In this document: positions 18,939 to 59,790 of the stretch, piece after piece
How the letters are laid out: each line of letters opens with the position of its first letter
Numbering within the stretch: the stretch's first letter is position 1
Assembly: GCA_905478195.1 (NCBI GenBank)
Contig: CAJQHM010000014.1
Location: 62,001 to 126,000, forward strand
Direction of reading: 5' to 3'
Length of the DNA stretch: 64,000 bases
From: an uncultured Pseudomonadales bacterium
Lineage (GTDB): Bacteria; Pseudomonadota; Gammaproteobacteria; Pseudomonadales; Pseudohongiellaceae
Position numbers and translations under genes: made by a program
The notes under the pieces: model-generated
What the model was told of the DNA's origin: nothing
Seen by the model: only the letters and a program-made list of their open reading frames with translations
Database searches by the model: none

Positions 18939-19039
18939 GATGATTAATTGTCCCCGCCTCGCGATATCGTTGGACAATTTGTGCCGGCCTTTATTAGGAT
19001 GAAGCCTCTACTTTCGTGACACTGAATTGAGGTGGCATC

Positions 19040-21688
19040 ATCGACAATCTCCGCGACAACAGCATCCGTAAGCTAAAGACCAGCTCCTCCAACTATAAAT
19101 ACTATAGCCTGGAGTCCCTGCAAGAATCAGGGTTCGAGGGCATAGCATCTCTTCCTGTCTCCATAAAAATACTGCTGGAGAACCTATTGCGCCACTATGA
19201 TGGCGAAGTCGTGACCAGGAAGCACATCGAGAAGCTTGCCGACTGGGAGAATTCACAACACAGTAGTGAAGAGATTATGTTTCTGCCTGTTCGCGTGCTA
19301 ATGCAGGACTTCACCGGCGTGCCCGCTGTAGTGGATCTGGCGGCGATGCGCGATGCCGTAGCCAGAGGAGGCAAGGATCCTTCGCTCATCAACCCTACCA
19401 ACCCGGTGGATCTGGTCATCGATCACTCGGTCATGGTCGACAAGTTTGCTGTCGATTCGGCCTATCGCGAGAATGTGAAGATTGAGATGCAGCGCAATCG
19501 TGAGCGCTATCAATTCCTGCGCTGGGGGCAGACCGCTTTCGATAACTTTCGCGTAGTGCCTCCCGGTACCGGTATCTGTCATCAGGTTAATTTGGAATAC
19601 CTCGCCAAATCCGTTTGGCAGGGGGAGATCGATGGCGAGCTCTTCGCCTACCCCGATACGCTAGTCGGTACGGACAGCCACACCACCATGATCAATGGCC
19701 TAGCCGTTCTCGGTTGGGGTGTGGGTGGCATCGAAGCTGAGGCGGCAATGCTTGGGCAGCCCCTGTCTATGAATATTCCTCAGGTTGTAGGCTTTAAGTT
19801 GGAAGGAGATCTGGCCGAGGGTATTACCGCGACAGATCTGGTACTTACGATTACCGAGATGCTCAGAGAGCATGGCGTGGTGGGAAAGTTTGTCGAGTTC
19901 TATGGCGCGGGATTGGACAATCTGAGTCTGGCAGATCGCGCTACTATCGCTAATATGACGCCAGAATATGGTGCCACGTGTAGTTTTTTTTCGGTAGACC
20001 AGAAGACACTGGACTATCTAACGCTTACCGGACGAGACGAGCAATTGGTAGAACTGGTGGAAGCCTATAGCAAGGCTCAGGGTCTGTGGCGTGATGATGA
20101 TGTTACTGTGAACTACTCTAGCGAGCTGAGTCTCAACATGGGCAAAGTGGTGCCTTGCCTCGCCGGCCCGAAGCGTCCACAGGATCGAGTGCCGGTTACC
20201 GATCTGGCAAGTCGCTTTCAGAGAGAATTTGATCTTGCCAAGCCTAGGTCGGTAGCCGTCACCGGCGAAGACTACGACTTGGAAGAAGGTGCCGTGGTCA
20301 TTGCGGCAATCACATCCTGCACAAACACATCGAATCCCGAGGTTATGATGGCCGCCGGTCTAATGGCGAAAAAGGCTCTGGAGAAGGGCTTGCAGAGGAA
20401 GCCCTGGGTCAAGACATCGCTGGCGCCGGGTTCCAAGGTTGTATCGGAATACCTGCAGCAGGCGGGATTGCAGCAGTCGCTGGACGATCTTGGCTTTAAC
20501 CTGGTGGGCTACGGCTGCACGACCTGTATCGGTAATTCTGGCCCGCTGCCGGAGCCGATCGACGCGGCAATTGCCGAGAACGATCTAACAGTGTGTTCGG
20601 TGCTTTCCGGAAACAGAAACTTCGAGGGCCGGATTCATCAGCGCGTCAAGGCGAACTGGCTGGCCTCGCCACCGCTGGTGGTTGCCTACGCACTCGCTGG
20701 CAGCGTTAATGTCGATATTAGTTCGGAACCACTGGGTGAGAATGCCGCCGGAGAGTCTATCTATCTGAAAGACATCTGGCCCAGCAACGAAGAGATAGCC
20801 GAGGCGGTGAAATTGGTACGCAGACAGATGTTCGATTCTGGCTACAGCGAAGTCTTCGACGGCGACGAGCAATGGAATAGCTTGCCGATAGAGCCTCAGA
20901 AGACCTACTCGTGGCAGCAAGACTCTACCTATATACGCAATCCTCCCTTCTTTGATCCGTCGATTACCGAGGCGGCTGGCGATATCTTATCGGCGAGTAT
21001 ATTGGCGGTTTTGGGAGACTCGGTGACAACAGACCATATATCCCCGGCTGGATCGATAGCGCAGGACAGTCCGGCTGGTGACTATCTGAGGTCTCACGGG
21101 GTGGAGAAAGCGCAGTTCAATTCCTATGGGTCGAGACGCGGCAATCATGAAGTCATGATGCGCGGCACGTTTGCCAATATTCGTATCAAAAATGAGATGC
21201 TAGCGGGCATAGAGGGTGGCTATACCCATATGGCTGGCGAGACGGCGGCGCTGCCGATCTATGACGCCGCCATGCAATACCAGCAGAGAGACACGGCGCT
21301 GGTAGTCGTTGCGGGGAAGGAATATGGCACTGGGTCCAGTCGTGACTGGGCGGCGAAGGGCACGCGCCTGCTTGGCGTGCGTGCGGTAATTGCCGAAAGC
21401 TTCGAGCGAATCCATCGCTCCAACCTGGCTGGTATGGGCGTTTTGCCACTGCAATTTATCGATGGTGTCGATCGCAAGTCGCTCACGCTCAGTGGTAATG
21501 AACAGATTAGCCTAATCGGTCTGGCGAAGGTCGTATCAGGCATGAAGGTTATGATGGAAGTGAAGTATGTGGACGGAACTACCGCGTCATGTGAGTTACT
21601 ATGCAGGCTGGATACCGAGTTAGAAGTTCAGTACTTCAATAGCGGAGGCATAATGCCATTCGTGGTGAATAAGTTATTGAGATCATAG
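19040..21688 (+). CDS. acnA: Aconitate hydratase A with non-canonical start
   Basis: Aconitase of the AcnA/IRP type, converting citrate to isocitrate in the TCA cycle. [4Fe-4S] cysteines are in ITSCTNTSNP and GYGCTTCIGNSGP. VCSVLSGNRNFEGR and the C-terminal swivel-domain motif GSSRDWAAKG are also present. Conserved N-terminal residues (a KYYSLESL segment, then SLPVSIKILLENLLRH) lie upstream of the first usual start codon, TTG 19187. The frame is closed by TGA at 19028-19030, and no ATG, GTG or TTG lies between. GAGGTGG at 19029-19035 places an ATC at 19040 (or 19037) at ribosome-site distance, giving 882 residues, close to the family length of about 890. A one-base indel after GTG 19032 is the alternative. 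Confidence 0.93.
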   Translation: MDNLRDNSIRKLKTSSSNYKYYSLESLQESGFEGIASLPVSIKILLENLLRHYDGEVVTRKHIEKLADWENSQHSSEEIMFLPVRVLMQDFTGVPAVVDLAAMRDAVARGGKDPSLINPTNPVDLVIDHSVMVDKFAVDSAYRENVKIEMQRNRERYQFLRWGQTAFDNFRVVPPGTGICHQVNLEYLAKSVWQGEIDGELFAYPDTLVGTDSHTTMINGLAVLGWGVGGIEAEAAMLGQPLSMNIPQVVGFKLEGDLAEGITATDLVLTITEMLREHGVVGKFVEFYGAGLDNLSLADRATIANMTPEYGATCSFFSVDQKTLDYLTLTGRDEQLVELVEAYSKAQGLWRDDDVTVNYSSELSLNMGKVVPCLAGPKRPQDRVPVTDLASRFQREFDLAKPRSVAVTGEDYDLEEGAVVIAAITSCTNTSNPEVMMAAGLMAKKALEKGLQRKPWVKTSLAPGSKVVSEYLQQAGLQQSLDDLGFNLVGYGCTTCIGNSGPLPEPIDAAIAENDLTVCSVLSGNRNFEGRIHQRVKANWLASPPLVVAYALAGSVNVDISSEPLGENAAGESIYLKDIWPSNEEIAEAVKLVRRQMFDSGYSEVFDGDEQWNSLPIEPQKTYSWQQDSTYIRNPPFFDPSITEAAGDILSASILAVLGDSVTTDHISPAGSIAQDSPAGDYLRSHGVEKAQFNSYGSRRGNHEVMMRGTFANIRIKNEMLAGIEGGYTHMAGETAALPIYDAAMQYQQRDTALVVVAGKEYGTGSSRDWAAKGTRLLGVRAVIAESFERIHRSNLAGMGVLPLQFIDGVDRKSLTLSGNEQISLIGLAKVVSGMKVMMEVKYVDGTTASCELLCRLDTELEVQYFNSGGIMPFVVNKLLRS

Positions 21689-56776: not shown

Positions 56777-58188
<1,412 letters not shown>

Positions 58189-58306
58189 GCTTTCAGGGTC
58201 CTGTTCGTGCAGGCCTTTCTAGGCTGCTATACTTTACTTTTTGGGGTCCTGGTTCGTAGATTCGAATAGGGCCTCGACTCAATTCCAGTGAAGAGGTTCG
58301 GCCGCC

Positions 58307-59293
58307 ATCGACAAGACTCTGTTTATAAAAGGTGTCGCACTCGAGTATCGGGCGCTTACCTTTATATTCCTGTCAGTTTGCATCATGTTCGCAGATGCCC
58401 GCTTCGGCTATCTGGAGCGAATCCGCTATGGCCTAGGCTTTGCCACCACTCCAGTCTATTGGGTGGCGGATATACCCACTCGAGTCTCTTTCTGGATCGA
58501 TGATGTGTTCGTCTCTCGCACCGACCTCTTAGAGGAAAACGACAATCTGCGCGCCGATCTGCTGATAGCGCAGCGAGAGCTGCAGCTACTTGAGAGCCTG
58601 GTTAGCGAGAATAATCGACTGCTTGCATTAAACGAGGCTACTCAAGGTATCAACGGTGCAGTTCTTGCCGCGGAGATTATCAATATATCCCCTGACCCTT
58701 ATTCTAAGAGAGTGCTGCTCAATAAGGGCGCTCGCGACGGAGTGTTCATCGGTCAGGCCTTGCTCGATGCAAACGGTTTGATGGGTCAGGTTGACGAGGT
58801 GCTGCCCTATACTGCCTGGGTTTTGCTGATTACCGATTCTCATCATGTGACGCCGGTGGAGGTGAATCGCAATGGCGAACGCGCCTTGGCTAGGGGCAGT
58901 CGTACCACCGCAACCGAGTTGGAGCTGGAGTTTGTGACACAGACTCAGGATATGAGGGCTGGAGACAGGCTGGTCAGTTCTGGTATGGGACAGGTCTATC
59001 CTAAGAACTATCCAGTGGCCGAAATCATTAGCGTCTATGCCGACCCCGGTCAGGACTTCGCTACTGTCAGGGCTAGGCCTCTGGCGCAACTTGAGAGCAC
59101 GCGTCATGTGATGTTGGTTTATAATAATGCCTCAGTCCAGTTAAGCGATCTTCCCGCCGCCTTGCCCCTGGATACCGCATTAGAAGTGCCTCTTGATACG
59201 GAAACAAGCCCCCTCGATGCAGCGCCAGAAGCAGTTGAGAGTGCCACAGTCGCGGCCGAAGAGGCCCCTCTCGTAAGAGAGACGGTGGAATAG
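58307..59293 (+). CDS. mreC: Rod-shape-determining protein MreC with non-canonical start
   Basis: MreC is a bitopic periplasmic scaffold linking MreB to the elongasome. The first usual start, ATG 58385, would delete the membrane anchor. The same frame upstream reads IDKTLFIKGVALEYRALTF... and then the helix LTFIFLSVCIMFADARF, which matches the known MreC pattern (I-K-x-L-F-x-K-G-x-S-L-x-x-R...). TGA at 58289-58291 closes the frame, and no ATG, GTG or TTG lies between. An ATC at 58307 with AAGAGG ten bases upstream gives 328 residues. A shifted GTG at 58288 could be used if one base were lost. The rest contains a coiled coil (DLLEENDNLRADLLIAQRELQLLE) and the beta domain; the tail is Ala/Glu/Pro-rich. 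Confidence 0.9.
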   Translation: MDKTLFIKGVALEYRALTFIFLSVCIMFADARFGYLERIRYGLGFATTPVYWVADIPTRVSFWIDDVFVSRTDLLEENDNLRADLLIAQRELQLLESLVSENNRLLALNEATQGINGAVLAAEIINISPDPYSKRVLLNKGARDGVFIGQALLDANGLMGQVDEVLPYTAWVLLITDSHHVTPVEVNRNGERALARGSRTTATELELEFVTQTQDMRAGDRLVSSGMGQVYPKNYPVAEIISVYADPGQDFATVRARPLAQLESTRHVMLVYNNASVQLSDLPAALPLDTALEVPLDTETSPLDAAPEAVESATVAAEEAPLVRETVE

Positions 59294-59301
59294 GCGGGTC
59301 G

Positions 59302-59790
59302 ATGCAAAATAGAGCACATTCTATATGGGTAATTTTGCTGAGCTTCTTCATAGCCTATCTGTTGGCTATTGTGCCCTTTCCGGAGTGGGCCATGAACTAT
59401 CGCCCGGAGTGGGTGCCCATGGTCCTGATCTATTGGGCTATGGCTCTGCCATATCGGGTTGGTATTGGTTCTGCCTGGGCGGCGGGGCTAGTGCTGGACG
59501 TACTTGAGGGATCCACTCTGGGGGTCAATGCACTAGCCTTGGTGGTTGTTGCCTACGTGGCGCTTAGCTTGCATCTGCGTATGCGCATGTTTTCGACGCT
59601 GAAGCAGAGCGGTCTGGTTCTTGCCTTGGTTGGCTTGAATTTGATGCTGTGTAATTGGCTGCAGATCGTAACCGGCCAGAGTGTATCCTCCAATCTGATG
59701 TTCCTTATGGCTGCGGTAACCAGTGCGGTTATCTGGCCCTCTCTCTTTCAACTGCTTCGACAAATTCGCCGTAGCTTCGATGTGCGCTAA
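59302..59790 (+). CDS. mreD: Rod-shape-determining protein MreD
   Basis: The 162-residue integral membrane protein has about five helices. YRPEWVPMVLIYWAMALPYRVGIGSAWAAGLVLDVLEGSTLGVNALAL matches the MreD family (the R-P-x-W and D-x-x-x-G-x-x-x-G-x-x-A features). It works with MreB, MreC and RodA/PBP2. It begins eight bases after mreC, so the genes are co-transcribed. Confidence 0.95.
   Translation: MQNRAHSIWVILLSFFIAYLLAIVPFPEWAMNYRPEWVPMVLIYWAMALPYRVGIGSAWAAGLVLDVLEGSTLGVNALALVVVAYVALSLHLRMRMFSTLKQSGLVLALVGLNLMLCNWLQIVTGQSVSSNLMFLMAAVTSAVIWPSLFQLLRQIRRSFDVR

Follow-up and report, generated by a model that had tools for sequence, protein, structure and literature searches.

Where does translation of mreC begin when its reading frame offers no standard start codon ahead of the membrane anchor? 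The question arises in a 64,000-nucleotide stretch of DNA (the window) on contig C14 of the 2.97-Mb draft genome of a marine bacterium which, among named relatives, is closest to uncultured Pseudomonadales, Pseudohongiella-like organisms, and the OM182 clade. The locus comprises mreB, mreC, mreD, maf, and rng, in this order, and thus contains an mreB-mreC-mreD operon (coordinates refer to the forward strand unless stated otherwise). Both neighbors of mreC have ordinary ATG starts, namely, mreB (57145..58188; PF06723, 488 bits), which has GAGG upstream, and mreD (59302..59790; PF04093). The mreC frame is closed at its upstream end by a TGA, read directly from the sequence at 58289..58291, after which it continues AGA GGT TCG GCC GCC ATC (58307) GAC AAG ACT CTG TTT ATA AAA GGT. 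The first-pass annotation had described mreC as a gene without a standard start, and the sequence bears this out: there is no ATG, GTG, or TTG between the TGA and the ATG at 58385..58387, and the Shine-Dalgarno sequence AAGAGG (58291..58296) does precede the ATC at 58307..58309, 10 nt 5′ of it. Because ATG 58385, codon 27 when counted from the ATC, is the first standard codon in frame, a standard gene caller retrieves an ORF of only 302 amino acids, compared to the 328 amino acids encoded from the AUC (58307..59293).

The encoded protein belongs to the MreC family, with scores of 128.8 bits against PF04085 (cut-off 28) and 168.4 bits against TIGR00219 (cut-off 92.75). When started at the AUC, its residues 6-274 align with residues 3-274 of the TIGR00219 profile. 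The cytoplasmic tip and single membrane helix of MreC are present only with the AUC start (IDKTLFIKGVALEYRALTFIFLSVCIMFAD). The ATG at 58385 lies within the membrane helix, and a protein beginning there would lack most of IDKTLFIKGVALEYRALTFIFLSVCIMFAD.

To locate the start, we compared mreC in 16 genomes of the genus, 80 named loci, and 43 close relatives. The first codon is ATC in 40 of the 43 relatives and ATT or ATA in the other 3, with variation confined to the third base. In the same relatives, the 25 triplets 5′ of the ATC accumulated 697, 694, and 731 changes at positions 1, 2, and 3, respectively, a pattern resembling noncoding DNA, whereas codons 2-26 show the coding-like distribution of 142, 18, and 544 changes. 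The substitution pattern thus switches at the ATC, so the coding sequence starts there. All 77 scorable named loci carry AUH (that is, AUN with N other than G) at this position, including 56 ATC, 12 ATT, and 9 ATA codons. By comparison, most other isoleucine residues of MreC are retained in 18% to 75% of the named set and one in 88%; a single further position is retained in 100%, but it lies within the stretch used to find the loci. In most congeners, in-frame stops are located 3-63 nt 5′ of the ATC, leaving no room for an upstream mreC start, and 64 of the 74 named loci with AUH contain no ATG, GTG, or TTG all the way up to the upstream stop. The ATG of Escherichia coli mreC (MKPIF) corresponds to the residue homologous to the AUH codon, a position that reads ATT AAA CCG or ATC AAG CCG in other genomes.

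The AUH codon is accompanied by a ribosome-binding signal. GAGG or GGAG occupies positions -14 to -11 of the mreC start in all 43 close relatives, and a Shine-Dalgarno match was found 4-13 nt upstream of 148 of the 172 AUH starts placed by motif. The same test applied at shifted positions mostly yielded 8-30 matches out of 172; the 91 matches obtained with a shift of +30 are explained by conserved Lys-Gly codons, which resemble the motif. The gene therefore displays the features that define a conserved near-cognate (AUH) start: no standard codon in the relevant part of the frame, a first codon confined to AUN at the border of a coding signature, and a Shine-Dalgarno sequence. Taken together, these comparisons indicate that mreC is very probably initiated at AUC 58307. 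Given the conservation and the coding signature, neither a sequencing error, nor an indel, nor a start at ATG 58385 can account for the observations. A draft congener (L015; G015:C36) stands apart in having mreC with an ATA start and an in-frame TAA, possibly due to an assembly error.

The first-pass annotation had gone further and suggested that AUC might be used for initiation in this lineage, a general role that would involve an altered initiator tRNA or a lax IF3. The idea draws on the presence of 2 AUC-started genes, mreC and acnA, within one 64-kb window, and holds for these 2 genes; as a general property of the lineage, however, it is very unlikely. In the other conserved genes of the window, the first standard codon lies opposite ATG or GTG in the corresponding stretches of the relatives, with mreC alone differing (acnA, which is crossed by a stretch boundary, was treated separately). 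Among the named loci, all 74 mreB genes start with ATG or TTG, and all 80 mreD genes begin at a standard codon. Accordingly, use of AUC by unrelated genes, as expected under lineage-wide recoding of initiation, was not found among these window genes or in mreB and mreD, and the normal starts of the other conserved window genes imply that AUC is gene-specific rather than part of a lineage-wide code. The initiator tRNA and infC had both been singled out for inspection. The initiator-type tRNA pattern GGGCTNATAACCC has one match, and an altered initiator tRNA was rejected since this sole match carries the anticodon CAT (CAU in RNA). In this genus, infC invariably starts with ATG (ATG AGR RGY AGY) and lacks a Shine-Dalgarno sequence at normal spacing (L037, in G000:C10 near 103633; L032-L034; L038-L043; and L045), whereas other families of the order have ATT or ATC as the infC start; infC thus behaves in the opposite way to mreC. 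Finally, AUH in mreC occurs far beyond the lineage, being spread over much of Gammaproteobacteria, so that treating it as a lineage feature was too narrow.

Alternatively, ribosomes could initiate at a standard codon further downstream (ATG 58385 in the window; GTG codon 17 in Pseudomonas), with the segment upstream of it remaining untranslated. This is the choice of standard gene callers and agrees with the residue numbering in PMC8137920, but we consider it highly improbable, because the segment between the AUC and the ATG has the strongest coding signature (142/18/544), matches TIGR00219 from profile residue 3, and encodes the N-terminal half of the anchor helix, and because the place of the next standard codon varies among species. 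A sequencing or assembly indel that separated GTG 58288 from the mreC frame, for which the presence of GTGAAGAGG upstream of mreC in another frame might speak, is next to impossible and is refuted by the relatives, in which the identical frame and ATC recur across many independent assemblies, including single-contig genomes, and most of which, among the congeners, lack GTG 58288 altogether. Initiation of mreC at the AUC remains the preferred reading.

The AUC start of acnA (19040..21688; NF006757, 1409 bits, residues 7-881 against profile residues 8-886) is preceded by GAGG at 19029..19032, 7 nt 5′ of the AUC. The ATC is retained in L347 (97%), L348 (85%), L349 (81%), and L353, as is the GAGG, whereas the more distant congeners L047-L049 have ATG. 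L349 has ACC at the first of the 2 ATC codons found in the window, which identifies the second ATC as the start. The AUC start of acnA is therefore real but confined to about 5 close species, and represents a younger, local case. With the codons of both mreC and acnA conserved in relatives, the earlier view that neither reflects a sequencing error proved correct. The 9-mer CATCGACAA, which had been noted around both start codons, is indeed identical at the 2 sites (58306 and 19039) and occurs a third time on the reverse strand (39422); 0.67 occurrences are expected by chance, and 3 were reached in 2 of 100 shuffles. Relatives, however, retain the ATC and not its context, which reads ATC AAT AAT or ATC AGT AAT in acnA and ATC GAT AAG in mreC. 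The sharing is thus a coincidence, and CATCGACAA was rejected as a common initiation signal.

To assess the distribution of AUH starts, we recorded, in even samples of genomes, the candidate codons located before the membrane helix. A stricter rule, which allowed no standard codon as far as TM+6, was dropped because valine and leucine codons within the helix count as GTG and TTG. In the order to which the window belongs, 48 of 65 genomes have AUH only, 7 have standard codons only, and 10 have both; for the class outside this order, the respective numbers are 55, 33, and 30 of 118 genomes, so that AUH serves as the start in at least 55. AUH mreC was absent from the few loci of other classes of the phylum that were inspected, a subset selected by score. 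In the class sample (L174-L315), a Shine-Dalgarno sequence precedes 40 of 52 AUH starts and 1 of 14 standard starts (Fisher p 3e-6), and on a rough single-gene tree the AUH and standard states interchanged at least about 28 times, compared to 52 with shuffled labels, with kindred genomes taken as independent in both the Fisher test and the tree counts. On this tree, the AUH state of mreC is inherited but not fixed, and the roughly 28 changes indicate that AUH is not indispensable for mreC. AUH is conserved as the mreC start in a large part of Gammaproteobacteria, where AUC, AUU, and AUA can replace one another.

The distribution includes Pseudomonas. Using the sequence of the solved P. aeruginosa MreC as a query, we analyzed 25 Pseudomonas-like genomes of one genus (L375 and L376-L399), all of which have AUH at the mreC start (23 ATC, 1 ATA, and 1 ATT), most commonly in the form TAGGAG-n6-ATC AAA CCG. 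In the complete 6.6-Mb genome L375, MreC is 100% identical to the P. aeruginosa crystal sequence over 176 residues, and L375 is therefore P. aeruginosa or a very close relative. The crystallized construct, MreCPa(97-258) (6zm0), was described with the cytoplasmic part and membrane region placed in the first 14 residues of MreC (PMC8137920). Mapped onto a congener, the construct corresponds to residues 113-274 counted from the AUC, so that the published numbering is 16 short; codon 17 of mreC in L375 is a GTG located within the membrane helix. The published P. aeruginosa numbering thus appears to imply a truncated start at GTG codon 17, 16 codons late, and presumably follows a database model that starts there.

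As for how the start would operate, the ordinary initiator tRNA probably reads the mreC AUC through a wobble mismatch, while AAGAGG pairs with 16S rRNA and so puts the near-cognate codon into the P site; IF3 would destabilize the resulting initiation complexes. Since IF3 rejects non-AUG starts, translation of mreC would presumably be low and sensitive to IF3. On the simplest reading, the weak start may hold the scaffold protein MreC scarce relative to MreB, encoded in the same operon, and lineages with an AUG-started mreC might arrive at the same output through a poor Shine-Dalgarno sequence. In E. coli, surplus MreC disturbs cell shape and MreD counteracts the effect (PMC7793260). We regard IF3 control, together with the MreC dosage step, as having an even chance of being correct, or slightly less. 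The extension of this scheme, in which most Gammaproteobacteria would place MreC under translational control by IF3 via AUH, tying wall growth to the translation machinery, and Enterobacterales-type lineages would rely on AUG with a poor Shine-Dalgarno sequence, is a proposal somewhat less probable than even.

To our knowledge, conserved AUU and AUC starts have been described in very few bacterial genes, and a core morphogenesis gene that begins at AUH in a large part of a class, Pseudomonas among its members, would be a sizable and testable addition. Many annotations probably omit the N-terminal tip of MreC along with half of its membrane helix. The observations also raise the question of why MreC should be translated weakly and whether IF3 sets its level. 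No paper on a nonstandard mreC start was found in the open-access literature, to which the search was confined.

With its AUH start, mreC joins a small known class of genes and is unusual within it for its breadth. The E. coli gene pcnB has an AUU start and, although a different gene, resembles mreC in that a near-cognate start limits a protein harmful in excess. The AUU start of infC, the gene for IF3, is autoregulated through IF3, and Streptomyces sigR, with its GTC start, keeps balance with its partner; both starts are repressed by IF3 (PMC5472188). Like mreC, infC combines a conserved AUH codon (AUU or AUC) with a Shine-Dalgarno sequence, is a gene-specific case, and is often misannotated (PMC5472188, PMC5559785), but AUH mreC is absent in E. 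coli. Furthermore, mreC lies outside the translation machinery, and an effect of IF3 on it would therefore amount to control of a client, unlike the feedback on infC. The parallel with sigR is that a nonstandard start sets the ratio to a partner, which for MreC and MreB is a proposal; sigR differs in having GTC rather than AUH, in belonging to Actinobacteria, and in having been demonstrated experimentally, whereas the case of mreC is built on sequence. The closest counterpart is E. coli mreC itself, an ortholog with the same place in the operon and a start at the homologous residue, which has AUG without a clear Shine-Dalgarno sequence, whereas mreC of the window has AUH with one.
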